A stretch of 39,386 nucleotides of DNA. Origin: Anaerovorax odorimutans (GTDB lineage Bacteria; Bacillota; Clostridia; Peptostreptococcales; JAAYPU01). A program made the translations under genes and the position numbers. Below the pieces are notes generated by a model. That model saw nothing but the letters and a program-made list of their open reading frames with translations. It did not search any database and had not been told where the DNA came from. Positions 12,900-33,003 of this stretch are shown in pieces (the first letter of the stretch is position 1; every line of letters starts with the position of its first letter). The DNA lies in the NCBI GenBank assembly GCA_016841185.1, contig JAENZQ010000015.1, positions 1 through 39,386 of the forward strand, read 5' to 3'.

Positions 12900-14171
12900 T
12901 TGAGAGTTTTGCAGCTTGGTTCCACAGGAACTGATGTAATGGAAATACAGGCACTGTTAAAAAAAATCGGCTATGATCCTGGTCCTATAGACGGTATTTT
13001 CGGCGAGCAAACCCGGCAGGCAGTCATCAATTTTCAAAGAGATAATAACTTGGTGCCGGATGGAATCATTGGACCCAATACTTACAAAAAACTTAATCCT
13101 TTATTACTTGGATATGATACCTATTATGTTCAGCCGGGGGATACGCTTTGGAGAATTGCGCAAAAATACTATACGACTTTAAACAGGCTTTTGACTGCAA
13201 ATCCAGGAATCGACCCATATCAGTTAAGAATAGGACAGAAATTGATTGTTCCTTTTGGGATAGATGTGGTTGATACAAATATCGATTATACCTATGAAAT
13301 CATGGAAAGAGATATTACAGGCCTTAAGAAAAGGTATCCTTTTATTGAGGTGGGCGTTGCAGGACAGAGCGTTTTAGGAAGAAACCTTTACTATCTCAAA
13401 TTGGGAAATGGACCCAACGAAGTATTTTATAATGGCGGAATACATGCGTTGGAATGGTTGCCGGTTCCAGTGCTTATGAGATGGATAGAAAATTTTGCAT
13501 TAGCCTATTCAGAAGGAAGATCCATTTTAGGGTATGATGTAAGGGATATTTGGAATAGAAGTACAATATACATTATTCCTATGATCAATCCTGATGGAAT
13601 AGATCTGGTATTGAACGGTCTGCAGCCTGATAATCCATATTATGATGAATTGTTACAATGGAATGACACCGGAGAACCATTTTCCCAGGTTTGGAATGCA
13701 AATATCAGAGGAGTAGATTTAAACCATAATTACGATGCGCTCTGGTATGAATATCAGGAGTTGGCAGAGGAATTAGGGTACGGAGATCCGGGGCCAACAA
13801 GATACCCTGGACCATTTCCGGAATCTGAGCCTGAAACAACGGCGGTTGTGGAATTTATACAAAACCACAATTTTCGTCTCATAATAGCATACCATAGCCA
13901 GGGGCAGGTAATTTACTGGGATTTTGAAAATATGGCACCTCCTATTGCAAGAGAAATAGGAGAGATGTTTGCGGATGTCAGCGGATATGAGCTGGCTGAG
14001 ACTGTTGGAACAGCGTCTTATTCAGGTATGAAGGATTGGTTTATACAAGAGTATCGAAAACCGGGATATACGATTGAAACAGGAATAGGGGAGAATCCTC
14101 TGCCTATTTCTCAGATACCAATGATTTATGAAAATAATGAAGAATTATTGCTGCTGGCGGCAGTTGTGTGA
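12900..14171 (+). CDS. Peptidoglycan-binding/LysM/M14 carboxypeptidase (gamma-D-glutamyl-DAP endopeptidase type)
   Basis: A 423-residue protein with three modules: a PG_binding_1 domain (about 5-58; GSTGTDVMEIQALLKKIGYDPGPIDGIFG), a LysM domain (about 77-118; VQPGDTLWRIAQKYYT) and an M14 zinc carboxypeptidase (about 130-415). Zn and catalytic residues are visible in GGIHALEW (HxxE), AYHSQGQ (His) and YTIETGIGENP (catalytic Glu). This architecture is that of endopeptidase I (ENP1) of Lysinibacillus sphaericus, which cuts the D-Glu-gamma-DAP bond of peptidoglycan peptides. There is no signal peptide, as in ENP1, which is linked to sporulation. The start is TTG at 12900, 6 nt after GGGGGG. A palindrome ATGCAA-T-TTGCAT (12828-12840) lies upstream. 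The gene appears to be monocistronic. Confidence 0.9.
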   Translation: MRVLQLGSTGTDVMEIQALLKKIGYDPGPIDGIFGEQTRQAVINFQRDNNLVPDGIIGPNTYKKLNPLLLGYDTYYVQPGDTLWRIAQKYYTTLNRLLTANPGIDPYQLRIGQKLIVPFGIDVVDTNIDYTYEIMERDITGLKKRYPFIEVGVAGQSVLGRNLYYLKLGNGPNEVFYNGGIHALEWLPVPVLMRWIENFALAYSEGRSILGYDVRDIWNRSTIYIIPMINPDGIDLVLNGLQPDNPYYDELLQWNDTGEPFSQVWNANIRGVDLNHNYDALWYEYQELAEELGYGDPGPTRYPGPFPESEPETTAVVEFIQNHNFRLIIAYHSQGQVIYWDFENMAPPIAREIGEMFADVSGYELAETVGTASYSGMKDWFIQEYRKPGYTIETGIGENPLPISQIPMIYENNEELLLLAAVV

Positions 14172-14240
14172 AAGGTTTGAAGCTATGAAAAGGTGGTTCA
14201 AAGTAGAACCGAATGTTAGAAAAAAATAAAAAACAGTATG

Positions 14241-14280
14241 AAAGAGCTGTGAATACTAATTTGTTATTCATGGCTTTTTA
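14241..14280 (+). terminator. Terminator after the M14 peptidase gene
   Basis: AAAGAGCTGTGAATA pairs with TATTCATGGCTTTTT around a 9-nt loop, with several G-U pairs, and ends in a T-run. Confidence 0.65.
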
Positions 14281-14309
14281 TAAAGTCAGAATAAAATATT
14301 TATAAATAA

Positions 14310-14338
14310 TTGACATATGCTCATAATAATAATAAAAT
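14310..14338 (+). promoter_or_regulatory. SigA-type promoter of the NifX-like operon
   Basis: TTGACA (14310-14315), a 17-nt spacer and TAAAAT (14333-14338). The -35 region ATTGACATATG is identical to that of the MinD operon promoter at 19419. Confidence 0.75.
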
Positions 14339-14340
14339 AA

Positions 14341-14354
14341 TAATGGGCATAAGC
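14341..14354. promoter_or_regulatory. Shared 14-nt element TAATGGGCATAAGC, copy 1 (candidate operator)
   Basis: It starts 2 nt after the -10 box, over the expected transcription start. The same 14 nt follow the MinD operon promoter at 19461. In this copy only the left half of the GGGC-ATAA-GCCC inverted repeat is complete. Confidence 0.55.
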
Positions 14355-14388
14355 TAATAAATAACACTTATAAGGAGATGATTTAATT

Positions 14389-14769
14389 TTGAAAGTTTGT
14401 ATTTCATCAAAAGGTAATTCATTGGAAAGTATAATGGATCCCAGATTTGGACGAGCAGCTTATTTTATTATTGCAGATACAGAAACAATGGAGAATGAAG
14501 CTGTGGAGAATTCCGCAGCAGCTTCAGGAGGCGGTGCAGGAGTTACATCAGGTCAGTTTATGGTGGATAAGGAAGTAACAGCCGTAATCACCGGTAATGT
14601 GGGGCCTAATGCAATGAACGTTCTCAAGGCTGCTGATATTGAAGTATATCGCGGTGTAGATATATCGGTAAAGGAGAATATTGAAAAGTTCAAGAAGGGG
14701 CTGCTGGAACAAATCAGCAAAACAGTACCCTCCCATTATGGGTTAGGCGTACAGGAAGAAAAGAAGTAA
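14389..14769 (+). CDS. NifX/NifB-family dinitrogenase cofactor-type metal-cluster-binding protein
   Basis: A 126-residue single-domain protein of the family containing NifX, NifY, the NifB C-terminus and Orange protein (ORP). The family fold is recognised from the start VCISSKGNSLESIMDPRFGRAAYF, the central HDK-like GQFMVDKEVTAVITGNVGPNAMNVL and the end AADIEVYRGV. Members bind Fe-S or Mo-containing clusters during cofactor assembly. The start is TTG 14389 behind AAGGAG. It opens an operon with a second NifX-like gene 21 nt downstream and two small glycine-rich genes. No nitrogenase structural genes occur here, so a nitrogen-fixation role is not supported. A role in metal-sulfur cluster handling with the MinD ATPases at 19545-21241 is inferred. 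Confidence 0.88.
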   Translation: MKVCISSKGNSLESIMDPRFGRAAYFIIADTETMENEAVENSAAASGGGAGVTSGQFMVDKEVTAVITGNVGPNAMNVLKAADIEVYRGVDISVKENIEKFKKGLLEQISKTVPSHYGLGVQEEKK

Positions 14770-14790
14770 AGACTTTTAGGAGGTATGATT

Positions 14791-15174
14791 ATGCGTGTTG
14801 CTATTTCCACCGATGGAGAATATGTTTCTCCTCACTTTGGCAGATGTCCTTCATTTACTTTGGTAGATATCAAAAAGGGAAAAGCTGTAAAAAGTATTGA
14901 AGTAAGTAATCCTGGTCATTCACCGGGATATATTCCACAGTTTCTGCATGAAAAAGGTGCAGAATTTATAGTATGCGGCGGTATGGGTGCCAGAGCACAA
15001 GGCTATTTTGAAGAAATGAACATAAAAACCATTATGGGTGTAAGCGGTAAAATAGATGAAGTAATAAAAAAATTGGAACAGGGAATCCTCGAAGGAGGAG
15101 ATAGTTTATGTTCGCCTGGCGAAGGAAGAGGATATGGACTTGAAAAAGACGAATGCGATCATGCACATGAATAA
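14791..15174 (+). CDS. Second NifX/NifB-family cluster-binding protein
   Basis: A 127-residue paralogue of the preceding gene: AISTDGEYVSPHFGRCPSFTLVDI at the start, GAEFIVCGGMGARAQGYFEEM in the middle, then MGVSGKIDEVIKKLEQG. It ends in a cysteine/histidine-containing tail (LCSPGEGRGYG...CDHAHE) that could bind metal. I start it at ATG 14791 because AGGAGG at 14779-14784 is 6 nt away; the ATG at 14785 directly abuts the ribosome binding site. The segment SPHFGRCPSF is closer to Orange-protein-like and NifB-tail members than the first paralogue is. Two paralogues in tandem suggest different partners or a heterodimer. Confidence 0.88.
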   Translation: MRVAISTDGEYVSPHFGRCPSFTLVDIKKGKAVKSIEVSNPGHSPGYIPQFLHEKGAEFIVCGGMGARAQGYFEEMNIKTIMGVSGKIDEVIKKLEQGILEGGDSLCSPGEGRGYGLEKDECDHAHE

Positions 15175-15220
15175 TCAGGCTTAAGAACTTTTATCAGAAT
15201 GGGTAGAAAGGAGGATGAAT

Positions 15221-15445
15221 ATGCCTTACGGAGACGGAACCGGTCCTACAGGGCAAGGTCCAGGTACGGGAAGAGGCATGACAGCCGGCAGTGGCAGGGG
15301 AAGAATGGGGGGCAATAATGCAGGTGCGGGACCAGGAGGAAATTGTGTCTGCCCTCGATGCGGGACAAAAGCTTCTCATGTAAGAGGAGTACCTTGTTTT
15401 ACTATTAAATGCCCACAATGCGGAACAAAGATGACACGAGCATAA
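15221..15445 (+). CDS. Small GDGTGP-tagged glycine-rich protein with a C-terminal zinc ribbon
   Basis: A 74-residue protein. The N-terminus MPYGDGTGPTGQGPGTGRG is glycine-rich and matches the tag of the next gene. The C-terminus holds two CxxCG pairs (CPRCGTK and CPQCGTK) plus one more Cys, a zinc-ribbon or rubredoxin-like knuckle. The start at ATG 15221 is set by AGGAGG 6 nt upstream; an ATG at 15215 is too close to that site. Proteins of this type are found beside NifX-like genes in anaerobes and archaea, but I know of no demonstrated function. It lies in the same operon, 46 nt after the second NifX-like gene. Confidence 0.75.
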   Translation: MPYGDGTGPTGQGPGTGRGMTAGSGRGRMGGNNAGAGPGGNCVCPRCGTKASHVRGVPCFTIKCPQCGTKMTRA

Positions 15446-15479
15446 TAACCGAATGCAATATATTAAGGAGGTGAGTGTT

Positions 15480-15797
15480 TTGCCAGGAGGAGACGGTACC
15501 GGCCCAATGGGTATGGGCCCTATGACAGGAAGAGGGGCAGGGTTTTGTTCAGGTTTTTCAACACCAGGCTATACAAACTTTGGAGGAAGATTTGGAATGG
15601 GCTTTGGCTTTGGAAGAGGCCGGGGGTTCGGAAGGCGGTTCTTCATTTCAGGTCTGCCCGGGTGGAACCGGTATGGTTACGCTTCATATTCACGAGATGA
15701 CGAAAAAAATTTTCTAAAAGGTCAGGCAGAATTTTTAGAAAACCAATTAGAGCAGGTCCAGCAGCAATTAAATGCATTAAATAATGATTCCGAATAA
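15480..15797 (+). CDS. DUF5320-type small protein: GDGTGP tag, Gly/Phe/Arg-rich middle, C-terminal coiled coil
   Basis: A 105-residue protein. It begins MPGGDGTGPMGMGPMTGRG, the signature of DUF5320 proteins. A Gly/Phe/Arg-rich low-complexity section follows (MGFGFGRGRGFGRRF), then a charged C-terminal helix of about 35 residues with coiled-coil character (QAEFLENQLEQVQQQLNAL). The TTG at 15480 is chosen as start because AAGGAGGT at 15465-15472 is 7 nt away and because the family begins with MPGGDGTGP; longer frames from 15453 are unlikely. It is the last gene of the NifX operon and is followed by a strong terminator. Function unknown; often seen with NifX-like and MinD-like genes. Confidence 0.8.
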   Translation: MPGGDGTGPMGMGPMTGRGAGFCSGFSTPGYTNFGGRFGMGFGFGRGRGFGRRFFISGLPGWNRYGYASYSRDDEKNFLKGQAEFLENQLEQVQQQLNALNNDSE

Positions 15798-15814
15798 TTA
15801 AATAATATAAGAGT

Positions 15815-15840
15815 AAAAAAGGCAGTGCACTGCCTTTTTT
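15815..15840 (+). terminator. Terminator of the NifX operon
   Basis: AAAAAAGGCAGTG pairs with CACTGCCTTTTTT as a perfect 26-nt palindrome. The centre cannot pair fully, leaving a tight TGCA loop. T-run present; it could work in both directions. Confidence 0.85.
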
Positions 15841-15981
15841 ATATCTTATAAAAATATCTGTCCATGAGATGAAAACAGTGATAAAATAATTTTAAAGAAA
15901 AATATGATTCTAAAGGCTTTTACAACTGTACAATAGTAGCATAATAATTGGTTTTTAATTATAGAAAGGGGATTGAAGAGT

Positions 15982-16455
15982 TTGGCCAGACCCACAAAGT
16001 GGAGAAAAGTTGAGTTTATACCAGTTGTTCAATATTTTGCACCTTGTGACGTTGCTGAGAATGATCTGAATGAGAATGTTATCCGTATTGAAGAAATTGA
16101 GTCGATACGCTTAAAAGATCTCGAAGGTATGGAGCAGGAAGAGTGTGCAGAAAAAATGGAAGTATCGAGACAGACTTTTCAACGTATTTTGAATGTTGCA
16201 CGGGCGAAGCTCGCAGACAGTTTGATAAACGGAAAAGCGATTCGAATTGAAGGTGGAAATTTCACACGTAACATTTGTCCTGTCAAGTGCCTTGATTGCG
16301 GTAAGCAATGGAGCGAGAGTTATGAAAATTTTCAAAAAGTGCTGAACGGACAGTTCAATTGTCCCTCCTGTGACTCTATAAAGGTCGTATGTTCCCGTAA
16401 AGAGGAGAAAAAATTTTGCAGGCGTAATTGCTGGAGATATAGGAATGAACTATAA
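15982..16455 (+). CDS. DUF134-family helix-turn-helix protein with C-terminal zinc-finger extension
   Basis: A 157-residue protein. Residues 1-95 are a DUF134 domain: MARPTKWRKVEFIP start, CDVAE, and a sigma-70-region-4-like helix-turn-helix in LEGMEQEECAEKMEVSRQTF. The C-terminal 60 residues carry Cys pairs (CPVKCLDCG, CPSC) and a further Cys-rich end (CSRK...CRRNC), suggesting one or two zinc or Fe-S sites. TTG 15982 is preferred over TTG 15973 because the former gives the canonical MARP start and 10-nt spacing from GGGG. A weak promoter-like TTTACA at 15919 lies upstream. Its place between the NifX and MinD operons makes it the best local candidate for their shared regulator; that is inference. 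Confidence 0.85.
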   Translation: MARPTKWRKVEFIPVVQYFAPCDVAENDLNENVIRIEEIESIRLKDLEGMEQEECAEKMEVSRQTFQRILNVARAKLADSLINGKAIRIEGGNFTRNICPVKCLDCGKQWSESYENFQKVLNGQFNCPSCDSIKVVCSRKEEKKFCRRNCWRYRNEL

Positions 16456-16551
16456 ACGGGATAGAATTGTAACCATCGGATTTCTCGGCGTGTAACGATT
16501 CAAACATGTTTGGATTAGATTATTTACAAATATAAGGGATCAATATATAAT

Positions 16552-16579
16552 AGGATTATGGGCAAAAACCCATAATCCT
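16552..16579. promoter_or_regulatory. 11-bp inverted repeat before the Fur-family gene
   Basis: AGGATTATGGG-N6-CCCATAATCCT is a perfect 11-bp stem. Only TTT follows, so it is a poor intrinsic terminator. It lies 27 nt before the Fur-family start codon. It could be an operator, a weak terminator of the DUF134 transcript, or an attenuator. The arm ATGGGCA resembles the shared element at 14343 and 19463. Confidence 0.45.
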
Positions 16580-16606
16580 TTGATTCAGGCAAATGGGGGG
16601 ATAAAA

Positions 16607-17059
16607 TTGTTGAATCAGTTAAATATTTTGCTTAGAGAAGAAAATCTGAGAGTTACACCACAAAGAGAAGCGATTCTCAAGGTTTTGTATGACTGCAGAG
16701 GCCATCATCTGGAAACAGAGAATATTTATGAACTTCTTGCCGCAAGGAGCGAAAAAGGGAAAAAAATTGGTTTGGCTACTGTATACCGAACGATGGAATT
16801 GTTTGAAAAAATTGGATTAGTATCAAGATTATCCATGGAAAATCTGCCTGCACGGTATGAGCTTATCCTTCAAACAAAACTGATACATCATCATTTGATA
16901 TGTTTAAAATGCGGCTGTGTACAGGAAATAGACGATAAGCTTGCGGAGGATTTCAAGAATCGGATCATAGATCAGACGGGATTTGAGGTTAAGGATAAAT
17001 CAATGAAAATATATGGATACTGCAGCAGATGCAGAGAGCAGGTAAAAAACAAAAGATGA
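16607..17059 (+). CDS. Fur-family metal-responsive transcriptional regulator
   Basis: A 150-residue cytoplasmic repressor of the Fur/PerR/Zur family. The N-terminal winged helix carries the family motif RVTPQREAILKVL and recognition segment GLATVYRTMELF. The C-terminal dimerisation half has the metal-binding region HHHLICLKCG and the second structural zinc pair CSRC. The start is placed at TTG 16607, 6 nt after GGGGGG; the longer frame from 16580 has no ribosome binding site. It lies 140 nt upstream of feoA, whose promoter region holds a perfect Fur box, so an iron-sensing Fur acting on feoAB is the natural reading. PerR or Zur cannot be ruled out from sequence alone. Confidence 0.9.
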   Translation: MLNQLNILLREENLRVTPQREAILKVLYDCRGHHLETENIYELLAARSEKGKKIGLATVYRTMELFEKIGLVSRLSMENLPARYELILQTKLIHHHLICLKCGCVQEIDDKLAEDFKNRIIDQTGFEVKDKSMKIYGYCSRCREQVKNKR

Positions 17060-17165
17060 TTAAGGACATTGGTAATTTGCAGTAATAGAATTTATCTATG
17101 AAAACTAAGTTGTACATCAAAAGGATTTGGATTAAGAGGTAAAGTATATTTTTTTTAGATTTAAA

Positions 17166-17180
17166 TGATAATGATTATCA
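17166..17180. promoter_or_regulatory. Fur box upstream of feoA
   Basis: TGATAATGATTATCA is a perfect match to the 7-1-7 Fur box TGATAAT-N-ATTATCA. It lies 20 nt before the feoA start codon, where bound Fur-Fe(II) would block transcription or elongation. Confidence 0.9.
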
Positions 17181-17199
17181 ATATGAAGGAGCAAAATGG

Positions 17200-17442
17200 A
17201 TGCAAAAAGAATTATTAGTTCTATCTATGATGAAAAATTCTCAATCAGGAACTGTCGCTAAAATAAGCGGAGGCAGAGGGATGGTTACCAGACTGGAAGC
17301 TCTGGGCATCAGGATAGGATCAAAAATAAAAAAGAAGAGTGCACTTATTGGATCTGGCCCTGTTATAGTTTTAGTCGGTAATACAGAAATAGCAGTAGGA
17401 CATAGAATGGCTTCGAAAATATTGGTGGAGGTGGATGAATAG
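17200..17442 (+). CDS. feoA: Ferrous iron transport protein A (FeoA)
   Basis: An 80-residue SH3-like cytoplasmic protein that supports the FeoB Fe(II) transporter. It has the family features: a GTVAKISGGRGMVTRLEALGI segment, IGSKIKKKS and the C-terminal VGNTEIAVGHRMASKILVE. The ATG at 17200 is used because AAGGAG is 8 nt upstream; the ATG at 17196 is in another frame. Its stop overlaps the feoB GTG start by one nucleotide, indicating translational coupling. A consensus Fur box just upstream indicates iron-repressed expression. Confidence 0.95.
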   Translation: MQKELLVLSMMKNSQSGTVAKISGGRGMVTRLEALGIRIGSKIKKKSALIGSGPVIVLVGNTEIAVGHRMASKILVEVDE

Positions 17443-19277
17443 TGACGATTCTTCTCATTGGGAATCCTAATGTTGGAAAGAGTTCTATATTCACCCATCT
17501 TACAGGTGTAAAGGTGACCATATCCAATTATCCGGGAACTACAGTACAATATGCTAAGGGATATTTAACATACAACCAAAAAAAATATGAAGTGATCGAT
17601 GTGCCGGGAACATATCAGATTGACCCTGAAGCTGAATCGGAAAGGGTTGCTGCTGATATGATAGAATCAGGAGACATTCTGGTTAATGTGGTAGATACTA
17701 CTAATCTTGAAAGAAACCTTAACCTTACAATTCAACTGCTGGAGTACGGAAAACCCATGGTGCTGGCTTTGAATATGTGGGACGATGCGAAACATAAAGG
17801 AATCAGTATCGATATAGGCAAGCTGGAAAAAATTCTCGGGATTCCGGTTGTTGCAACCAACGGACTCACAGGAGAAGGTTTAAAGCTTCTTCAGGAAAAA
17901 ATAACGACTTGTGAGCCAATTGAATACAAAAAGCTTACAAATGGTGAAAGATGGGAAAAAATAGGACAAATCATATCAGAAGTTCAAAATCTTTCTCACC
18001 GCCATCATACTTTTATCGAAGTGATGCAGGATTTAGCCGTCCATTCTTTAATCGGACCTGTTGCTGCTGTTGCAGTATTGTATCTTGTTTTTAAATTTAT
18101 TATAACTGCCGGAGAGTACATAACAGAGGTTGTTTCAATGCTTTTTGACATATTCTATTTGCCGCTTATAATGCATTTAAGCAAACTGTTAGATGGGAAC
18201 AATTTAATTCATTCCGTTCTGATAGGAAATATTTCTGCAGGAAAAATAGATTTTGAGGCTGCTATGGGGGTATTGACGACGGGTGTGTTTGTTGTTTTTG
18301 CAATTGTTTTGCCTTATATCATACTCTTTTATGCTTTATTCGGATTTTTAGAAGATTTTGGATATTTACCAAGAGTAGCTATTATACTGGATAGACTGCT
18401 TCATAGAATTGGGTTGCATGGGTATTCGGTAATACCTATGTTGCTTGCGTGTGGATGTAATGTACCTGGGGTATTGGCTGTCAGAAATCTGGAAACCAGA
18501 AGAGAACGGTTCATTACTTCTGTTATAACTTGTGTCACAATTCCCTGTATGGCCCAAACTGCATTAATTGTTAAAGCTGTAGGAGAACAAGGGGATATCT
18601 ACCTTTTATTGACTTTTACTTCTCTTGCTTCTGTTTGGATTGTGCTGGGAATGGTGCTAAAAGAAACGGTTAAAGGATCTACACATACATTGCTTATGGA
18701 AATTCCTCCATATCGAATACCAAACTTTAATATGCAATTAAAAAAATTAAGGATGCGTATTTCATGCTTTTTCAAGGAAGCGATTCCTTATGTATTAGGT
18801 GGCATACTTTTTATCAATCTTCTGCATACTACGGGATTCATTGAATGGGTTGGAATTGTGTTTTCACCTTTGATTAAAGGTGTGATGGGGCTTCCTGATG
18901 AAACGGTAGCTGCTTTGATTATTGGGACTTTAAGAAAAGACGCTGCCGTTGCACTACTTACTCCAATTGGATTAAGTAGTTTTGAAATGGTTAAAGCTGT
19001 TATTGTATTGACGATATATTTCCCTTGTGTCGCTACTTTTACTGTTTTACTCAAGGAACTTGGGATAAAAGATACAGTCAAAGCTGTTTTGATTATGTTT
19101 TTTGCAACTATTGCGGTAGGTGGGAGTTTGAATCTCCTTGGTAGATATTTTACGCCTGTTGTTTTGATAATAATAGAAATTGCCATTATAGTTATTTGTG
19201 GGCTATTTATACCAGGCATTTCATCTAAAAAGAGAGAAGATATAATGGACGATACAGAAGAAATAAGCGAAATATAA
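17442..19277 (+). CDS. feoB: Ferrous iron transport protein B (FeoB)
   Basis: A 611-residue membrane Fe(II) transporter with an N-terminal GTPase domain. GTPase motifs are G1 GNPNVGKS (residues 7-14), the switch region NYPGTT, G3 DVPGTY and G4 NMWD (the usual NKxD is altered, as is common in FeoB). The membrane half has two Gate motifs, one with the conserved cysteine region LLACGCNVPGV, and about 8-10 helices. Length is at the short end for FeoB, and there is no long C-terminal cytoplasmic domain. The start is GTG 17442, overlapping the feoA stop. No feoC follows. A hairpin lies behind the gene. Confidence 0.95.
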   Translation: MTILLIGNPNVGKSSIFTHLTGVKVTISNYPGTTVQYAKGYLTYNQKKYEVIDVPGTYQIDPEAESERVAADMIESGDILVNVVDTTNLERNLNLTIQLLEYGKPMVLALNMWDDAKHKGISIDIGKLEKILGIPVVATNGLTGEGLKLLQEKITTCEPIEYKKLTNGERWEKIGQIISEVQNLSHRHHTFIEVMQDLAVHSLIGPVAAVAVLYLVFKFIITAGEYITEVVSMLFDIFYLPLIMHLSKLLDGNNLIHSVLIGNISAGKIDFEAAMGVLTTGVFVVFAIVLPYIILFYALFGFLEDFGYLPRVAIILDRLLHRIGLHGYSVIPMLLACGCNVPGVLAVRNLETRRERFITSVITCVTIPCMAQTALIVKAVGEQGDIYLLLTFTSLASVWIVLGMVLKETVKGSTHTLLMEIPPYRIPNFNMQLKKLRMRISCFFKEAIPYVLGGILFINLLHTTGFIEWVGIVFSPLIKGVMGLPDETVAALIIGTLRKDAAVALLTPIGLSSFEMVKAVIVLTIYFPCVATFTVLLKELGIKDTVKAVLIMFFATIAVGGSLNLLGRYFTPVVLIIIEIAIIVICGLFIPGISSKKREDIMDDTEEISEI

Positions 19278-19303
19278 ATAATAAGAATAAGCATATTTTA
19301 AGA

Positions 19304-19327
19304 AGCCCGTTATGTTTCAGACGGGCT
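19304..19327 (+). terminator. Hairpin after feoB
   Basis: AGCCCGT at 19304-19310 pairs with ACGGGCT at 19321-19327 around a 10-nt loop. The tail GTTCTATT is only moderately T-rich, so termination may be partial. Confidence 0.55.
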
Positions 19328-19418
19328 GTTCTATTGCCTAAAAAAGGGCAGAGATTTACGAAATTCGAACTTATTTTATAAAAAATTAAAAAGAATAAAT
19401 AATAAGAAAGGCTAATTA

Positions 19419-19447
19419 TTGACATATGTTTAAAATAGTAATATGAT
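19419..19447 (+). promoter_or_regulatory. SigA-type promoter of the MinD/radical SAM/Mrp operon
   Basis: TTGACA (19419-19424), a 17-nt spacer and TATGAT (19442-19447). The 11-nt ATTGACATATG is identical to the NifX operon promoter. Confidence 0.75.
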
Positions 19448-19460
19448 TAGTTGTGAAAGT

Positions 19461-19477
19461 TAATGGGCATAAGCCCT
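19461..19477. promoter_or_regulatory. Shared element TAATGGGCATAAGC, copy 2, with complete inverted repeat
   Basis: The first 14 nt are identical to 14341-14354. In this copy GGGC-ATAA-GCCC forms a complete inverted repeat. It sits about 14 nt after the -10 box, i.e. in the first bases of the transcript. Candidate operator. Confidence 0.55.
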
Positions 19478-19544
19478 AAATTTTTCTGCTCGCCAAAAAT
19501 GAATTCGTTTTTATAACAAGTATTGAACATAAGAGGAGGTTAAA

Positions 19545-20375
19545 ATGAAGATAGCTGTTTTAAGTGGAAAGGGAGGAACAGGCAAAACAACCGTTTCGGC
19601 CAGTTTAGCGATGTCGCTTCCATCCTGTCAGTATATAGATTGTGATGTGGAAGAGCCTAATGGCGCAATTTTCCTTATGCCTGAATTGGAGAAACCGTCA
19701 CCGGTAAAAGTATTGGTACCGGAAGTAGATATGGCAAAATGTGATGCTTGTGGTAGTTGTGCAAAAGCATGTCAATTCAATGCAATTGCCGTTGTTAAAG
19801 ATAACGTACTTATGTTTCCGGAAATCTGTCATCATTGTGGAGCATGTTTAATTGCCTGTCCCAATGAAGCAATAAAAGAGGTAGAAAGAGTTATTGGTGT
19901 TGTTGAGTCCAATAAAGACGATTCTTTCCTTCACGGCAAATTAGATGTGGGGGAACCTATCAGTATTCCTATTATACAGCAACTTAAAAGACGCATTAAA
20001 ACTAAAGGAGATGTTATTCTCGATTGCTCACCGGGGGCCTCCTGTGTCGTTGTACAGTCTATAGAAGATTCTGATTATTGTATATTGGTTACTGAACCGA
20101 CGCCTTTTGGGCTCCATGATCTTAAAATTGCTGTGCAGCTGGTGAGAAAAATGGGTATACCCTTTGGAATCGTATTAAATAAAGCATCTGACGACAGCAG
20201 GATCATTCATGAGTTTTGTCGGGAAGAAGGTATCGACCTGTTGATGGAAATTCCTTTTGACCAGGATATAGCAGAAGGATATTCCAGAGGGATTCTTCCT
20301 GTTCAGAATGATCGTACCTGGCAGGAAAAATTTATTAAGCTTTATGAAAAAATAGAAAGAGGTGCCGGAAAATGA
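19545..20375 (+). CDS. MinD-family ATPase with inserted 2x[4Fe-4S] ferredoxin domain (first of tandem pair)
   Basis: A 276-residue cytoplasmic P-loop ATPase of the MinD/Mrp/NifH class. The deviant Walker A SGKGGTGKT is at residues 7-15. A bacterial-type ferredoxin insert follows at about 60-115 with two four-cysteine clusters (CDACGSCAKAC and CHHCGACLIAC), each expected to hold a [4Fe-4S]. Later motifs are DCSPGASC and TEPTPFGLHDLK, as in MinD-like proteins. Such tandem Fe-S MinD proteins are partners of NifX-like Orange protein in Desulfovibrio. ATG 19545 follows AGGAGG. The next gene starts inside its last codons (ATGA overlap), so the two are translationally coupled and probably form a heterodimer. 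Confidence 0.9.
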   Translation: MKIAVLSGKGGTGKTTVSASLAMSLPSCQYIDCDVEEPNGAIFLMPELEKPSPVKVLVPEVDMAKCDACGSCAKACQFNAIAVVKDNVLMFPEICHHCGACLIACPNEAIKEVERVIGVVESNKDDSFLHGKLDVGEPISIPIIQQLKRRIKTKGDVILDCSPGASCVVVQSIEDSDYCILVTEPTPFGLHDLKIAVQLVRKMGIPFGIVLNKASDDSRIIHEFCREEGIDLLMEIPFDQDIAEGYSRGILPVQNDRTWQEKFIKLYEKIERGAGK

Positions 20376-21241
20376 AACAGGTTGTATTTATAAGCGGAAA
20401 AGGAGGAACAGGGAAGAGTACTCTGGTTTCATCATTGAGTATCCTTGTTGAGAATAAAATGATAGCTGACTGTGATGTAGACGCCCCCAATTTGCATATT
20501 TTACTGAAAGGCGATGTACAAAAAAAGGATGATTTTTTTGGTGCGAAGGAAGCTGTAATCGATCCTGAGCTATGTGTCAAGTGCGGTTTGTGTGAAGAGA
20601 CATGCAGGTTTGATGCAATTGAAGAATGCAAAGTATCGGTCATGAAATGTGAAGGCTGTGGTGCATGTGTGCTGGTATGTCCCCAAAATGCAATTAAACT
20701 GGAAGAAGTAAAAACGGGCGAAACTTATGTGTCCAAGACTAATAGGGGTACTTTTTCCAATGCATTACTGGATATTGGGGCAGAAGGATCCGGAAAGCTT
20801 GTAACAGAAGTAAGGAAGAACGTAAATAATTACAAGAAAAAAGAAGAATGGGTACTTATTGACGGCTCTCCTGGAATCGGGTGCTCGGTTATTGCTTCTA
20901 TGACGGGAGCAGATGCAGTGATAGCAGTTTCGGAACCCACTAAATCAGGGAAAAGCGATTTGGAAAGAGTATTGGGGGTGGCAAGGTATTTTGAAATACC
21001 GGCATTTGTCTGTATCAATAAATATAATCTCAATTTACAGGTGACCAAGGAGATTGAAGCATTTTGCGAGCAAGAAGGTTTTCCTGTCATTGGGAAAATA
21101 CCCTTTGATGAAACAGTGGTGAGGGCTTTAAGGGAATTTAAAACACCTGTAGAGGCAGGCAATAGTGTGGTCACCCAAGAGATTAAAAATATTTGGTCAA
21201 GGATTAATGATGAAATGAAAAAGCTTGAAAGTGTGTCGTAA
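20372..21241 (+). CDS. MinD-family ATPase with inserted 2x[4Fe-4S] ferredoxin domain (second of tandem pair)
   Basis: A 289-residue paralogue of the upstream gene, overlapping it by 4 nt. Walker A is SGKGGTGKS (residues 7-15). The ferredoxin insert has CVKCGLCEETC and CEGCGACVLVC. Downstream motifs DGSPGIGC and SEPTKSGKSDLERV place it in the same subfamily. ATPase-driven loading or transfer of Fe-S or heterometal clusters is the expected role, by analogy with Mrp/Nbp35 carriers and ORP-complex MinDs. The two copies are clearly diverged, so the duplication is old. The radical SAM gene follows 29 nt downstream. Confidence 0.9.
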   Translation: MKQVVFISGKGGTGKSTLVSSLSILVENKMIADCDVDAPNLHILLKGDVQKKDDFFGAKEAVIDPELCVKCGLCEETCRFDAIEECKVSVMKCEGCGACVLVCPQNAIKLEEVKTGETYVSKTNRGTFSNALLDIGAEGSGKLVTEVRKNVNNYKKKEEWVLIDGSPGIGCSVIASMTGADAVIAVSEPTKSGKSDLERVLGVARYFEIPAFVCINKYNLNLQVTKEIEAFCEQEGFPVIGKIPFDETVVRALREFKTPVEAGNSVVTQEIKNIWSRINDEMKKLESVS

Positions 21242-21270
21242 TATGATTAAGAAAGCAGGTGCTGTAAAAG

Positions 21271-22212
21271 ATGATTGCATTTGGGCCGATTCCTTCCAGA
21301 AGATTGGGTCAAAGTTTAGGAATTAATAATATCCCACCGAAAACATGTTCTTATTCCTGTGTTTATTGTCAGATTGGAAGGACAAATAAAATGCAGGCTT
21401 CAAGAAGTAAATTTTATGACCCTAAGGATATTTTTCTGGAAACAAAATTAAAAATTAATGATATGAATGCTAAGGGTGAAAAGGCAGATTATATTACTTT
21501 TGTTGCTGACGGAGAACCCACGCTGGATATAAACTTAGGCGCAGAAATAGAGTTTTTGAAGCAGTTTGATATTAAGATTGCTGTAATAACCAATGCTTCT
21601 TTGTTATGGATGGATGATGTCAAAAGAGACTTAATGAAAGCAGATTGGGTTTCGATCAAGGTCGATGCAGTAGATTTCGATGCTTGGTATAAGGTAGACA
21701 GACCTCATGGCAATTTGGATATTGAAAGAATAAAAAAAGGTTCTTTAGATTTTGCTCAGTGTTATAAGGGTGTGTTGGTGACCGAAACTATGCTTGCAAG
21801 CGGTATCAATGATAATAAGGAATGTCTGGATGGGATAGGTATGCATTTGGCAAAAATAAAACCGGCTAAAGCTTATATTTTGGTGCCTACAAGACCGCCT
21901 GCCGAAAGTAATGTAAAAAGGCCTTCTACTTCAAAGCTAAAAGAGGCTTTTAATAGCATCAGAACTATGGTAGATGTTGAAGTTGAATGTATTACAGAAG
22001 ATGAAGGCGAAAGCTTTTTCTTTGCAGATGATATTATAAATGATTTGCTTAGTATTTTATCTGTACATCCGGTCAGAGAGGAAGTTATTGATAAGCTGTT
22101 GAATAAAAGAAAAATCAATAAAAAAGTAATTGATGATTTAGTTAAAAAAGGATTGATTAAAGAATTTATATATGAAAATAGAAAATTTTATCGAAAGAAT
22201 CAGGAGAAATAG
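21271..22212 (+). CDS. Radical SAM protein with C-terminal winged-helix-like region
   Basis: A 313-residue radical S-adenosylmethionine enzyme. CSYSCVYC gives the CxxxCxxC motif (residues 26-33) that ligates the [4Fe-4S] cluster cleaving SAM. GPIPSRRLGQSLGIN at the start and ADGEPTLD are features of a subgroup of uncharacterised clostridial and archaeal radical SAM proteins often found near MinD/NifX genes. The last 70 residues (LSVHPVREEVIDKLL...DDLVKKGLIKEFIYENRKFY) look like a winged helix, possibly binding nucleic acid or a partner. The ribosome binding site is weak (AGGT, 10 nt away), suggesting lower translation than the ATPases. Substrate unknown. Confidence 0.85.
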   Translation: MIAFGPIPSRRLGQSLGINNIPPKTCSYSCVYCQIGRTNKMQASRSKFYDPKDIFLETKLKINDMNAKGEKADYITFVADGEPTLDINLGAEIEFLKQFDIKIAVITNASLLWMDDVKRDLMKADWVSIKVDAVDFDAWYKVDRPHGNLDIERIKKGSLDFAQCYKGVLVTETMLASGINDNKECLDGIGMHLAKIKPAKAYILVPTRPPAESNVKRPSTSKLKEAFNSIRTMVDVEVECITEDEGESFFFADDIINDLLSILSVHPVREEVIDKLLNKRKINKKVIDDLVKKGLIKEFIYENRKFYRKNQEK

Positions 22213-22233
22213 TATACTGTGGAGTGATGTGTA

Positions 22234-23058
22234 GTGATAAGAGTACATATTCTGGCGGATAATACCGTCAGGAAACGTGGAATGATTGCAGAACATGGAC
22301 TTTCTTTGTGGATAGAAAAAGATGAAAAAAAGATATTGTTTGATACCGGACAATCTTCAGTATTTTATCATAATTCAAAGATTATAGGAATCAATCTCGA
22401 AGAAACGGACAGTATCGTAATCAGTCATGGTCATTATGACCATTGCGGCGGTCTTCAATATTTGCCTTGCAGGGGAAAGGCACCGCCAATATATGTACAT
22501 CCCGATGCTTTTATAAAAAAGTATATTTCTCATAGTAATCAAATAATCGGAGCAGGGTTACCTTTTAAAATAGATGATTATAAATGGTTAAAAAATGCAT
22601 TGGTCTATACACGACAGCCGTTATGGATTGAAAAAGAGATTTTAGTGTCTGGAGAAATACCTTGTTCCAATACTTTTGAGGAAGTGCCGGAAAACTTATA
22701 TATAGAGCATGAGGGAGAAATAATAAATGATATGATGCTGGATGAGCAAATGTTGATTGTTGAAGATAATGGGGAAATAGCTGTATTTCTTGGATGCAGC
22801 CATCCTGGCATCATCAACAGTGTCAAATATGCTCAGAATCTTATACCGGATAAGCGCATTAAACTTCTTGTAGCGGGCATGCATCTTCAGAACGTGAGTC
22901 CGATAAGATTACAGATGACGATCCAGCATTTAATGGACATAAATATTAAGAAGATCGTTCCTTTACACTGTACAGGTTTTGATGCAATGTGCGAAATGAA
23001 GCGTTTCTTAGGAAAACGATGTGCGATCTTGTCTGTAGGAGATTCAATTGAAGTATAA
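22234..23058 (+). CDS. Metallo-beta-lactamase-fold hydrolase
   Basis: A 274-residue MBL-fold protein. SHGHYDHCGG gives the dinuclear metal motif HxHxDH, and later ligands are in LGCSHPGI and at VPLHCTGFDA. It resembles the 7,8-dihydropterin-6-methyl-4-(beta-D-ribofuranosyl)aminobenzene-phosphate-synthase-like group, which is widespread in anaerobes without a known universal role. The start is GTG 22234, 9 nt after GGAG. It lies between the radical SAM and Mrp genes with short gaps (21 and 44 nt), so it is part of the same operon. MBL-fold proteins occur repeatedly in MinD/NifX clusters, which suggests a shared process, not a housekeeping pterin role. Confidence 0.85.
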   Translation: MIRVHILADNTVRKRGMIAEHGLSLWIEKDEKKILFDTGQSSVFYHNSKIIGINLEETDSIVISHGHYDHCGGLQYLPCRGKAPPIYVHPDAFIKKYISHSNQIIGAGLPFKIDDYKWLKNALVYTRQPLWIEKEILVSGEIPCSNTFEEVPENLYIEHEGEIINDMMLDEQMLIVEDNGEIAVFLGCSHPGIINSVKYAQNLIPDKRIKLLVAGMHLQNVSPIRLQMTIQHLMDINIKKIVPLHCTGFDAMCEMKRFLGKRCAILSVGDSIEV

Positions 23059-23102
23059 TTTAAACAATACTGAAATAATTAACAGGAAAGGAAAATATAA
23101 AT

Positions 23103-23936
23103 ATGAATCATCCGGAAAAAAATAAAAACAATTCTTCTGCCCGTCCAAAGACTAAAGCTGACTTGATTTTAAAAACACATGAGTTTAATGATATAAAAAA
23201 AACAGTAGCGATATTAAGCGGAAAGGGCGGGGTAGGGAAATCATTGGTTACTTCTTTGATTGCTGTTATGATGAGGAGGAAGGGTTATAATACCGGCATA
23301 CTTGATGCAGATATTACGGGACCTTCGATTCCTAAAATTTTTGGCGCCGATCACTATAGGCCTAACCCCGATGAACTTGGAATATATCCTGTTGAGACAC
23401 ATAATGGAAATAAAATAATGTCCATCAACCTTTTGCTGGAAAAAGGAGATGATCCTGTTATCTGGAGGGGTCCATTGATATCAGCAACCGTGAAACAATT
23501 CTGGACTGATGTAATCTGGGGGGAATTGGATTATTTGTTCTTTGATATGCCGCCAGGTACAGGGGATGTGCCTCTTACAGTGTTTCAATCAGTTCCACTG
23601 GATGGAATAATTATCGTTACATCGCCTCAGGATCTGGTTTCCCTTATTGTAAAAAAGGCTTACAATATGGCAAAATCAATGGATATACCAATAATAGGGA
23701 TTATAGAGAATATGAGCTATGCAACTTGTCCCAAGTGTGGAGAGATGATAAAAATATTTGGTGAAAGCAAGTCAGAAAAGGTTGCTCAAGAAATGAACAT
23801 TCCGTTTTTAGGAAGATTGCCAATAGACCCTGATTTGGCAGGGCTTTGCGACAAAGGGGAAATAGAAAAATTTAACAAGAATTATATGGATGAGTGTTTA
23901 AATACCCTTGAAAGGAAACTGGAAACTGTGAAATAG
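23103..23936 (+). CDS. Mrp/NBP35-family Fe-S cluster carrier ATPase
   Basis: A 277-residue P-loop ATPase. After a charged, probably disordered N-terminus of about 35 residues comes Walker A SGKGGVGKS, then the Mrp signatures DADITGPSIPK, WRGPLISATVKQFWTDV, FDMPPGTGDV and the cluster-bridging CPKCGE. Mrp/ApbC proteins dimerise around a bridging [4Fe-4S] and hand it to target proteins. This one lacks the N-terminal DUF59 domain of longer Mrp proteins, and unlike the two MinDs upstream it has no ferredoxin insert. It ends the operon and is followed by a strong terminator. In ORP-type clusters a similar ATPase accompanies the MinD pair. Confidence 0.92.
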   Translation: MNHPEKNKNNSSARPKTKADLILKTHEFNDIKKTVAILSGKGGVGKSLVTSLIAVMMRRKGYNTGILDADITGPSIPKIFGADHYRPNPDELGIYPVETHNGNKIMSINLLLEKGDDPVIWRGPLISATVKQFWTDVIWGELDYLFFDMPPGTGDVPLTVFQSVPLDGIIIVTSPQDLVSLIVKKAYNMAKSMDIPIIGIIENMSYATCPKCGEMIKIFGESKSEKVAQEMNIPFLGRLPIDPDLAGLCDKGEIEKFNKNYMDECLNTLERKLETVK

Positions 23937-23977
23937 GAAGCCCCAATGGCAAAGAAGAAAAGAAAAGTAAATTTTGA

Positions 23978-24004
23978 GACACCCTGATAAAGGGTGTCTT
24001 TTTT
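23978..24004 (+). terminator. Terminator of the MinD/radical SAM/Mrp operon
   Basis: GACACCCT pairs with AGGGTGTC around GATAA, followed by TTTTTT. It lies between convergent genes. Confidence 0.9.
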
Positions 24005-24033
24005 ACAAGCTTAATATTCAGCAAAAAATAGGA

Positions 24034-24873
24034 CTAATTCATTAATTTGTAATTAAAATAAGCCATGGTCAATACGATGCTGCTGCCTAAGAGGCTATAA
24101 AAATCGGGTATTTCGTTAAAAACCAAAAATCCTGTGATTAAAGCAAAAATAACACTCAGATAATTATATACTGAGACTTGTGAGGCCGGTGCATATTTAT
24201 AACTCAGTGTGATGGAAATTTGTCCCAATGAGGCAAAGACACCGATCATAAGAAGCTGTAAAAGTTGTATTGAACCGGGGACAATAAAGTCTGCCGCAGC
24301 AAAAGGGATAAGCCCTACTACAGAAAAAAGCGAAAAGGCAAAAATAATGGTGTAAGTATTTTCTTCTTTTAAGAATCGTAGTATCGTATAAGCGGCTCCG
24401 GCAAAGACAGCTGAAAGAACACCGGTTATTGCCGGCAATACGCTTAAATCAAATTGAGGTTTGACGATTAAAAGTGTGCCTGTGAAAACTGCAGCAAGGA
24501 TAAAAAAATGGTACCTGTTTAATTTTTCTTTAAGAAATATTGCAGCAAAAACGGTAGTAAAAAAAGGAGACAGTCTGTTTAAGGTAGAAGCATCGGACAT
24601 AATAAGTTTATCAATGGCATAAAAAAAGAAAATAACGCCTAATAAACCAAAAAAACACCTGAAGAATAAAGCCTTTCGATTTTTCTTTTTAGGAATGAAA
24701 GGTTTTTTATAAATAATCAATATCATTAAAGTAACAAATAAACTAACCGAATTTCGAAACAAGACTTTTTCATAAAGAGGTATTGCTTCTGCAAGTTTCA
24801 CAAAAAGTTGCATAAGTGTAAAAGAAAGAGCTGCTGCAATCATGAATATTACAGCCTTTTTTTTATTGTCCAA
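24034..24873 (-). CDS. EamA/DMT-superfamily permease
   Basis: A 279-residue protein of about ten transmembrane helices, the usual two-EamA-repeat layout of drug/metabolite transporters. Typical landmarks are KVLFRNSVSLFVTLMIL, LSPFFTTVFAAIFLKEKL at the end of the first repeat, and the matching QVSVYNYLSVIFALITGFLVFNEIP of the second. The RNS...AIDKL pattern is seen in members annotated as S-adenosylmethionine or purine/amino acid exporters, but the substrate cannot be told. It is convergent with the Mrp operon and transcribed alone. Confidence 0.88.
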   Translation of the reverse strand: MDNKKKAVIFMIAAALSFTLMQLFVKLAEAIPLYEKVLFRNSVSLFVTLMILIIYKKPFIPKKKNRKALFFRCFFGLLGVIFFFYAIDKLIMSDASTLNRLSPFFTTVFAAIFLKEKLNRYHFFILAAVFTGTLLIVKPQFDLSVLPAITGVLSAVFAGAAYTILRFLKEENTYTIIFAFSLFSVVGLIPFAAADFIVPGSIQLLQLLMIGVFASLGQISITLSYKYAPASQVSVYNYLSVIFALITGFLVFNEIPDFYSLLGSSIVLTMAYFNYKLMN

Positions 24874-32310: not shown

Positions 32311-33003
32311 ATGTATGAAAAATGGATCGATACGATTTCAGCTTCTGCACTGTTCAGTGGTATAGCCAAAGAAGACTTGAAATTTATGATTAATTGTATT
32401 AAACCAAGAATGGAGAAATTTTCAAAAAATGATTACATTGTATTTACCGGAGAAAGGTTTGAAGGAGTGGGTGTTCTTTTGTCCGGCGCTGCTACGGTTC
32501 TGAAAGAAAATGCTGCAGGAGAGCGCATTATTATGACGTTATTAGAGCCCGGGGATATTTTTGGGGAAATAGCTGTTTTTTCCAGCTTAATTAGCTGGCC
32601 TTCAACTGTTCAGGCTCAGGAAGACTCTGTTGTTATATTTGTATCCGGCGATAAAATTGTAGGAAGTTGTCAGAATGCATGTATCGGACATAAAAAACTG
32701 ATATTAAATATGTTGGGGATCGTTTCTGAAAAGGCTTTGAACCTGAATAAAAAAGTAGAATATCTGACAATTAAAAGCATGCGGGGGAAGCTCAGTGCTT
32801 TTTTACTGGAACAGTACAAAAAGACCGGAAAATCAACCTTTATGCTGCCCATGAACCGAAACGAACTGGCAGAGTTCCTGAATGTATCAAGACCTTCCAT
32901 GTCCCGTGAAATGAGCCGGATGAAAGAAGAAGGGACAATCGATTACTATTTGTCTTCCATCCAGATAAAAGATATGGAATCATTGAAGAATATGGTGGAC
33001 TAA
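32311..33003 (+). CDS. Crp/Fnr-family regulator (HcpR-like)
   Basis: A 230-residue transcription factor with an N-terminal cNMP-type sensor fold (about 10-130: LLSGAATVLKE, LEPGDIFGEIAVF) and a C-terminal winged helix (about 150-220: MNRNELAEFLNVSRPSMSREMSRMKEEG). It lacks the N-terminal cysteine cluster of classical Fnr. Being divergent from the ferredoxin/hcp genes it is probably the NO-responsive HcpR of this organism, a group that in other anaerobes controls hcp. No experimental binding motif is recalled here with certainty. The start ATG 32311 has only a weak site (AAAGGG, 9 nt). Confidence 0.85.
   Translation: MYEKWIDTISASALFSGIAKEDLKFMINCIKPRMEKFSKNDYIVFTGERFEGVGVLLSGAATVLKENAAGERIIMTLLEPGDIFGEIAVFSSLISWPSTVQAQEDSVVIFVSGDKIVGSCQNACIGHKKLILNMLGIVSEKALNLNKKVEYLTIKSMRGKLSAFLLEQYKKTGKSTFMLPMNRNELAEFLNVSRPSMSREMSRMKEEGTIDYYLSSIQIKDMESLKNMVD

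Follow-up and report, generated by a model that had tools for sequence, protein, structure and literature searches.

We analysed a stretch of 39,386 nucleotides from Anaerovorax odorimutans (assembly GCA_016841185.1, contig JAENZQ010000015.1, positions 1-39,386 of the forward strand; hereafter the window), in which a locus at 14389-23936 encodes two NifX-domain proteins, two small GDGTGP proteins, a DUF134 regulator, Fur, FeoAB, a tandem pair of ferredoxin-containing MinD-type ATPases, a radical SAM protein, a metallo-β-lactamase (MBL)-fold hydrolase and an Mrp carrier. The locus probably encodes a machine for the assembly, storage and delivery of iron sulfide: an orange-protein (ORP)-type system in split form, controlled as one regulon by DUF134 and supplied with iron through Fur and FeoAB. 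The NifX and MinD promoters bear one common operator and the fur promoter a weaker copy, DUF134 is fused to NifX at other loci, and the GDGTGP proteins resemble detached protein tails; none of these three features formed part of the initial annotation, which had been made from the sequence of this DNA alone. The layout of the locus is well supported, and all thirteen genes named in that annotation are present, every one on the forward strand, as follows.

14389-14769, forward strand: NifX-domain protein of type T1 (RFGRA...GGGAG); PF02579, 81.4 bits.
14785-15174, forward strand: NifX-domain protein of type T2 (HFGRC); PF02579, 79.6 bits; MrpORP model (ORP half), 89.9 bits.
15215-15445, forward strand: small GDGTGP protein with a Gly/Arg stretch and a CxxC...CxxC module; DUF5320 at 21 bits, under the 27-bit cut-off.
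15453-15797, forward strand: DUF5320 protein (the second GDGTGP protein), 109 bits; Gly/Arg/aromatic core and a coiled-coil-like end (by eye).
15973-16455, forward strand: DUF134 regulator of the long type with a Cys-rich, zinc-ribbon-like end; PF02001, 79.3 bits against a gathering score of 27.
16580-17059, forward strand: Fur, from the family scan.
17200-17442, forward strand: FeoA, named solely from its sequence and its position ahead of feoB.
17442-19277, forward strand: FeoB, from the family scan.
19545-20375, forward strand: MinD1, ferredoxin-containing ATPase of MinD/NifH fold (Orp3/4 type); two 4Fe-4S motifs and a Cys at D160+7.
20372-21241, forward strand: MinD2, paralogue of MinD1, which it overlaps by 4 bases; two 4Fe-4S motifs and a Cys at D164+7.
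21271-22212, forward strand: radical SAM protein, from the family scan.
22234-23058, forward strand: MBL-fold hydrolase, from the family scan.
23103-23936, forward strand: Mrp/ApbC carrier, Mrp half of MrpORP; MrpORP model, 343 bits (cut-off 450); PF10609, 307 bits.

Conservation of this set was assessed in two samples. In the class sample of 196 genomes, which counts A. odorimutans itself, MinD1 had a strong match (E < 1e-60) in 47 genomes, as a rule adjoined by MinD2. All 47 encoded DUF134 and NifX above the family cut-offs and 36 encoded DUF5320, while the 149 genomes without MinD1 yielded DUF134 in 34 and NifX in 55 (Fisher p 1.5e-23 and 9e-17, respectively). The second sample comprised 80 named loci, drawn from 299 relatives in a genome contig scan and representing many phyla of bacteria and archaea. 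With our own profiles at E 1e-4, and with many of the contigs short, NifX was found at 75 of the 80, Mrp at 38, DUF5320 at 36, DUF134 at 23, radical SAM at 16, MBL at 15, Fur at 11 and FeoB at 7; stricter E-values gave 16, 13, 11 and 5 for the last four. The co-occurrence of NifX and MinD genes, on which the initial annotation had staked its reading, was thus borne out in both samples. Among the matches listed, the closest named relative by MinD1 was a Tepidanaerobacteraceae metagenome-assembled genome (78%). A frequent gene order in the class maps was DUF5320, DUF134, NifX, MinD1, MinD2, an optional MBL gene, Mrp and NifX, and the window is a rearranged form of this order with fur-feoAB inserted between.

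The orange-protein complex has been under study since about 2000, and we know of no agreed job for it. The locus shares a NifX-domain protein, tandem ferredoxin-MinD ATPases and an Mrp carrier with the ORP complex of Desulfovibrio vulgaris (Orp3, Orp4, Orp5, Orp8 and Orp9/MrpORP), but differs in that the Mrp and NifX halves are split, in that there are two NifX types, and in the addition of DUF134, DUF5320, Fur/FeoAB, the radical SAM protein and the MBL-fold protein. The MrpORP equivalog describes both domains in a single chain; the window Mrp fell below its 450-bit cut-off, and also scored 217 bits, under the 348-bit cut-off, against the ApbC equivalog. Because Mrp reaches 343 bits on the MrpORP model and the T2 NifX protein 89.9 bits on its other half, we read MrpORP as split in the window. 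The Mrp protein is a clear member of the Mrp/ApbC/NBP35 P-loop carriers, yet one part of a larger set. Fused Mrp-NifX proteins were flagged among Mrp-like open reading frames (ORFs) in 10 of 77 cases, and the eight of these that were put to the MrpORP model (NF041136, cut-off 450; the other two lay outside this test) all passed, at 450.5-557 bits, seven of them in MinD-pair loci. Sorting of NifX into T1 and T2 by motif is rough, and a NifX of neither type stood beside T2 at 11 of the 50 loci from the class and at 26 of the named 80. MrpORP is reported to hand iron-sulphur clusters to Orp3-Orp4-Orp8 in vitro (PMC6345978). Regulation may differ too: the Desulfovibrio orp genes are described as depending on sigma-54 and DVU2106 (PMC3897727), whereas the window has sigma-70-type promoters with palindromes.

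The two ATPases also tie the locus to the ORP systems through their ancestry. In a quick tree of 62 pairs and seven Mrp proteins, a branch with support 81 set off all the first members, another (99) all the second members, and Mrp stood apart (100); the tree program warned that long branches meet between the MinD seconds and Mrp. Since firsts and seconds separate in this way, the MinD pair is, judged by its sequences, a single ancient duplication, gene order included, shared by bacteria and archaea. The kinship with ORP-type MinD proteins claimed initially also stood up: the window pair and the pair of L229, a locus whose Mrp passes the MrpORP model, fall in the same two sister groups, a comparison made without D. 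vulgaris Orp3/Orp4. As the 80 loci do not include those two proteins, it is the MrpORP-passing loci that carry the ORP link; NifX at 75 of the 80 adds to the ORP likeness.

In 18 aligned sequences per paralogue the eight ferredoxin Cys were invariant, as was a further Cys seven residues past the switch-II Asp (D+7). This residue is Cys in 115 of 115 firsts (two missed by the regular expression were read by eye) and in 114 of 115 seconds, one second lacking the motif, and is Asp in 76 of 77 Mrp proteins. The bridging-cluster ligand C132 of NifH likewise lies seven residues after D125, and we take the D+7 Cys to occupy a C132-like place. An AlphaFold model of MinD1 (mean pLDDT 92) matched ApbC (Z 22.8, root-mean-square deviation (rmsd) 3.2, 213 aligned), BchL (21.8, 2.9, 209), MinD (21.6, 3.0, 209) and NifH (about 20), and Foldseek put MinD first; in model comparison these are near ties (Z within about 1-3) that give no function by themselves.

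The fold match to MinD, taken with reports that the ORP complex is linked to cell division and that MrpORP is polar in Desulfovibrio (PMC6345978), could be read as a MinD-type device for division or positioning, as the initial annotation had hinted. We regard this as highly improbable, for ApbC, BchL and NifH match the MinD1 model about equally, the window proteins score far below the MinD cut-offs (TIGR01968, 28.4 and 47 bits against 212.9), and the D+7 Cys and the ferredoxin insert suit redox use; a cell-division role was rejected on the TIGR01968 scores and the near tie in the fold search. In a gut-loop model in the pig, a ferredoxin-insert P-loop ATPase of Clostridioides difficile, CD2169, is reported to rise 2.5- to 3.2-fold (PMC3445491).

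The evidence for a regulon comes from the promoters. Matches at 11 of 12 positions lie ahead of genes at three places in 14180-24050, before NifX (14310), fur (16523) and MinD1 (19419), and the sole better match lies inside feoB. The NifX promoter reads TTGACA-17-TAAAAT and the MinD promoter TTGACA-17-TATGAT, and in the operator a palindrome, about TTATTGACATATGYYMATAA, lies across the -35 box with a second copy 3′ of the -10 box. These sites, and the Fur box of the same region, are listed here.

14305-14361, forward strand: operator 1, NifX operon promoter; TTGACA(TATG) at 14310, -10 box TAAAAT at 14333-14338, second palindrome half GGGCATAAG.
16523-16578, forward strand: candidate operator 2, fur promoter; TTTACA-17-TATAAT, then the palindrome GGATTATGGGCAAAAACCCATAATCC.
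17166-17180, forward strand: perfect Fur box TGATAATGATTATCA, ahead of feoA.
19414-19481, forward strand: operator 3, MinD operon promoter; TTGACATATG at 19419, -10 box TATGAT at 19442-19447, and GGGCATAAGCCC.

Across 224 stretches upstream of labelled genes, some of them overlapping, an 8-mer count recovered CATATGTC on either strand in 48, against 1.9 after shuffling. Read as a single promoter type, the sites carry about GTTATTGACATATGYYMATAAY across the -35 box, and 84 of 95 have a -10 box 15-19 bases off. A second palindrome follows the -10 box in 68 of these 84, compared with 27% of shuffled controls, its centre mostly 34-36 or 38-39 bases from that of the first; bases outside its scored core show the same consensus, so that it is not a mere scoring effect. 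A strict pattern, TTATTGACATATGNYM, gave 91 sites in 52 of the 196 genomes (eight for the backward pattern), and its distribution is linked to DUF134: 49 of the 52 carriers have DUF134, and just 3 of the 115 genomes without DUF134 carry the pattern (p 8e-21). Collapsed by family, the figures were 26 of 39 with DUF134 versus 1 of 31 without (p 1.5e-8). Among the DUF134 genomes without the MinD pair, 15 of 34 likewise carried the strict pattern, and in 12 of these 15 it adjoined a DUF134, DUF5320 or NifX gene.

Genes of the set lay directly downstream of 59 of 78 operator regions (DUF5320 34, DUF134 13, NifX 11, MinD1 1), a lower bound, because the assignment drew on some of the DUF134 rows, on 14 rows for NifX and on a single one for MinD1. 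Nine further regions were placed by eye: six precede an MBL gene (G065), a Fur gene and a radical SAM operon (both G095), a radical SAM remnant (G057), an Mrp gene (G047), and a MerR-like gene with Mrp (G181), and the other three lie back to back with an opposite-strand gene for DUF134, DUF5320 or NifX. No matching gene could be named for the remaining 10. In A. odorimutans a looser two-part pattern returned three plausible sites and one probable chance site (none for the reversed pattern); the plausible ones are the NifX and MinD sites of the window and a third 5′ of a second DUF5320-DUF134 pair.

Some operators were seen in decayed settings. At about 6517 in L180 (G125:C3) an orphan operator, near-identical to that of the same-genus cluster L072, is followed by transposase-like frames (by eye), and may be a scar left after loss of the cluster. 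G057 has a cluster on C137 and, at L117 (G057:C120), a second copy in pieces, with truncated MinD, Fur and radical SAM frames and good operators retained.

Several observations point to DUF134 as the protein that reads the operator. It exceeds the Sigma70_ECF cut-off (27.1 versus 21.1 bits) in its helix-turn-helix part, and among 94 DUF134 ORFs examined it was fused with a NifX domain in one open frame at five loci (L103, L189, L190, L193 and L197). The letters after the operator core vary with DUF134 subtype: CA-type sites number 23 of 41 for the short type and 0 of 14 for the long one (p 1e-4). In this comparison subtype was assigned by motif, only loci with one subtype were used, three sites of unclear subtype were dropped and kinship was not corrected for. 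The existence of the fusions suggests that DUF134 may sense what NifX binds; fusions and subtype-dependent letters together make DUF134 the likely reader and a NifX-bound cluster the likely signal. Repression, as opposed to activation, is our guess, because the palindromes cover the -35 box and the start. Where the NifX part begins, L193, L189 and L190 have what resembles an internal ribosome site (by eye), and free NifX is possibly also made. The listings of open-access papers that were searched showed no account of DUF134 as a regulator.

The operator might instead be read by another regulator that travels with DUF134, of the Fur/PerR-like or Crp-like kind for example, leaving DUF134 with some other job. 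Fur-like genes do stand beside several clusters, and DUF134 is itself a predicted reader. Such a reader is nevertheless very unlikely, since DUF134 showed the strongest operator link of the four families cross-tabulated (DUF134, NifX, DUF5320 and the MinD pair), several operators lie directly 5′ of DUF134 in genomes without the pair, and the operator letters track DUF134 subtype. Fur, which is present in 162 of the 196 genomes, cannot alone explain the pattern.

The GDGTGP proteins connect the locus to IssA of Pyrococcus furiosus, which stores thioferrate and joins a NifX-type domain to a cationic, Gly- and aromatic-rich tail proposed to wrap it (PMC5524996). In the window this layout is not present in one chain, the tail-like proteins being separate; they resemble detached tails, and other organisms fuse such Gly/Arg-rich tails to NifX. 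Seven open frames (L202, L207, L212, L224, L229, L243 and L249) match both the NifX and the DUF5320 profile, and are built of a NifX domain, a GMGRG-type tail and a coiled-coil-like end, while in L226 and L219 NifX is fused to a Gly/Arg tail bearing a CxxC...CxxC module. The small Cys protein of the window aligned with the L226 tail at a score of 243 (shuffles at most 74), and the DUF5320 protein with three other tails at 86-107 (shuffles at most 54). The core of the latter is 30% Gly and 25% aromatic, with zero acidic residues and an isoelectric point (pI) of 11.3. The likeness to IssA thus lies in a NifX-type domain working with a cationic Gly/aromatic-rich tail; the window differs in its separate tails and in adding a MinD pair, Mrp and a regulator, and the storage role known for IssA is here a proposed one. 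The MrpORP paper separates IssA from Orp9 on the ground that Orp9 lacks such a tail (PMC6345978), a difference that narrows because tails occur both beside and fused to ORP-type NifX domains. In Methanococcus voltae grown on pyrite, two NifX-domain proteins and FeoAB are reported to rise together (PMC8516115).

Iron uptake appears to belong to the same circuit. The palindrome at the fur promoter is three mismatches off the ideal operator core and is the sole such match in the window, with none in 100 shuffles. In the sister genome G136 (L069) there is no fur at that place, and an operator lies 5′ of feoA with a Fur-box-like stretch further down; feoB is in fragments there (7936-9330 of L069, G136:C35), and a NifX gene of the cluster is broken by a TGA, through decay or sequence error. 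In G095 there are operators 5′ of a Fur gene, of an MBL gene and of a deformylase-radical SAM operon whose radical SAM protein is of the window's kind; operators also precede the MBL gene of G065 and the Mrp gene of G047. Also in G095, at about 4937 of L175 (G095:C28), a FAD-linked oxidoreductase of 450 residues (by eye) has an operator-like promoter. By our own profile, Fur genes occur in 11 of 47 class loci, window included, against 0.84 expected from PF01475 copy numbers (p 1.7e-9), and FeoB, radical SAM and MBL matches in 4, 4 and 13 of 50 class loci. The initial annotation had described the iron, radical SAM and MBL genes as fused into the system; a common control circuit is upheld by the operators before Fur, MBL and radical SAM genes elsewhere, whereas a fixed fusion is not, these genes being optional at such counts. 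The available text of a study of iron limitation in clostridia (PMC6311696) does not mention these genes.

Unlabelled neighbours of at least 70 residues in the 50 class loci were clustered, and clusters found in at least four loci were considered and named by eye: ABC transporter, response regulator, Crp-like, MerR-like, ArsR-like, FmdE-like, DUF89-like, FeoB, arsenate-reductase-like and similar proteins. A MerR-like Cys-rich regulator was seen in five loci (for example L079, 11657-12082), and at about 7579 in L086 a MerR-like regulator lies 3′ of an operator and 5′ of Mrp. In the window, a Crp/Fnr-type regulator (by eye) at 32311-33000 has relatives in seven MinD-pair loci, the window's included, and a zinc carboxypeptidase with LysM and peptidoglycan-binding domains at 12900-14171 lies immediately upstream of the cluster.

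These neighbours bear on two further explanations. The first takes the locus for a sulfide system of Mo/Cu or another heterometal, in which NifX holds a thiomolybdate-type cluster, the ATPases load or remove it and the iron genes are bystanders. The gene core is identical in kind to that of the Desulfovibrio systems, Orp8 homologues are reported to bind S2MoS2CuS2MoS2 (PMC6345978), and the FmdE-like neighbour occurs in four loci. FmdE-like proteins apart, no recurring neighbour among the clusters named above hints at molybdenum, whereas Fur genes show an enrichment of about 13-fold, and in other genomes the same operator is found at genes for Fur, radical SAM and MBL proteins. We therefore hold this explanation unlikely, and the unusual or heterometal cluster envisaged initially drew no backing, no result favouring heterometal over plain iron sulfide.

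The second is a maturation pathway for one client metalloenzyme encoded elsewhere, in which NifX, MinD and Mrp build a special cluster that the radical SAM and MBL proteins tailor. It follows the NifB/NifX/NifH logic of nitrogenase assembly, and radical SAM genes are found in 16, and MBL genes in 13-15, of the 80 named loci. Radical SAM and MBL genes are each missing from most loci, the set spans very different lineages, and no enzyme family recurs widely in the class loci, which makes a client pathway quite unlikely; a recurring client enzyme was rejected on this clustering. With the nitrogenase cofactor proteins NifX, NifB and NifH the window shares a NifX domain and a NifH-like fold, but the absence of nitrogenase genes noted initially holds genome-wide, in that the 3.56 Mb genome (completeness score 100%) has no PF00148 match (NifDK/NifEN-type protein) at E 0.001, and the idea of a nitrogenase remnant was rejected on the same result. 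A search for structured RNA gave no match at gathering level.

For the iron-sulfide machine we propose the following course. Fe(II) would enter through FeoAB under Fur control, and the T1 NifX scaffold with the detached cationic Gly-rich tails (the DUF5320 protein and the small Cys protein) would hold iron sulfide in an IssA-like manner. MinD1 and MinD2 would form a NifH-like heterodimer, whose ferredoxin domains supply electrons and in which ATP powers reduction or release of the cluster, and T2 NifX with Mrp, a split MrpORP, would ferry clusters to clients. DUF134 dimers on the two palindromes flanking the -10 box would block transcription until the NifX-bound cluster, or its lack, alters DUF134. 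Of this picture, the genes present, their co-occurrence, the age of the MinD pair, the ORP link, the operator with its tie to DUF134 and the fusions are computed results, whereas binding and repression by DUF134, the kind of cluster, the part played by each protein, the heterodimer and the sequence of hand-over are inferred. In its most specific form, which we put forward tentatively and with some doubt, the proposal makes DUF134 a repressor that senses clusters. Anaerobes would then store and dispense iron sulfide by means of the orange-protein system, in which an IssA-like scaffold has been split into NifX and free tails; a NifH-like MinD1-MinD2 heterodimer would fill and empty it, under a switch that reads NifX and sets iron uptake as well.

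Several observations weigh against the iron-sulfide machine. In Desulfovibrio gigas the cluster bound by the Orange protein is of the Mo-Cu kind and no iron sulfide, and the name of the FmdE-like protein beside four loci is tied to molybdenum enzymes. The strict operator pattern is absent from A. odorimutans itself and from 32 of the 81 DUF134 genomes; the NifX site of the window is one T short of it, and the MinD site has TTT after ATG. The pattern was learnt from MinD loci, which leaves the genomes lacking the pair as its sole independent test, and three of the 15 such genomes that carry it (G022, G125 and G157) have the site away from every gene of the set. Read on the opposite strand, the palindrome ahead of fur could also be a hairpin resembling a terminator. 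The NifX proteins of the window are tail-less, the whole DUF5320 protein is mildly basic (pI 7.9), and part of the resemblance to tails comes from Gly/Arg stretches of low complexity. As for IssA, no MinD partner is mentioned in the available text of PMC5524996, and the electron paramagnetic resonance signal of M. voltae, IssA-thioferrate-like as it is, was considered in that study to differ from the P. furiosus signal (PMC8516115).

The tail fusions connect two families that have been studied apart, ORP and IssA, and the operator defines a regulon that is testable in any culturable anaerobe bearing it. If the proposal is true, a machine for handling iron sulfide would be common to many anaerobic bacteria and archaea, at work beside, or ahead of, the usual iron-sulphur assembly systems.

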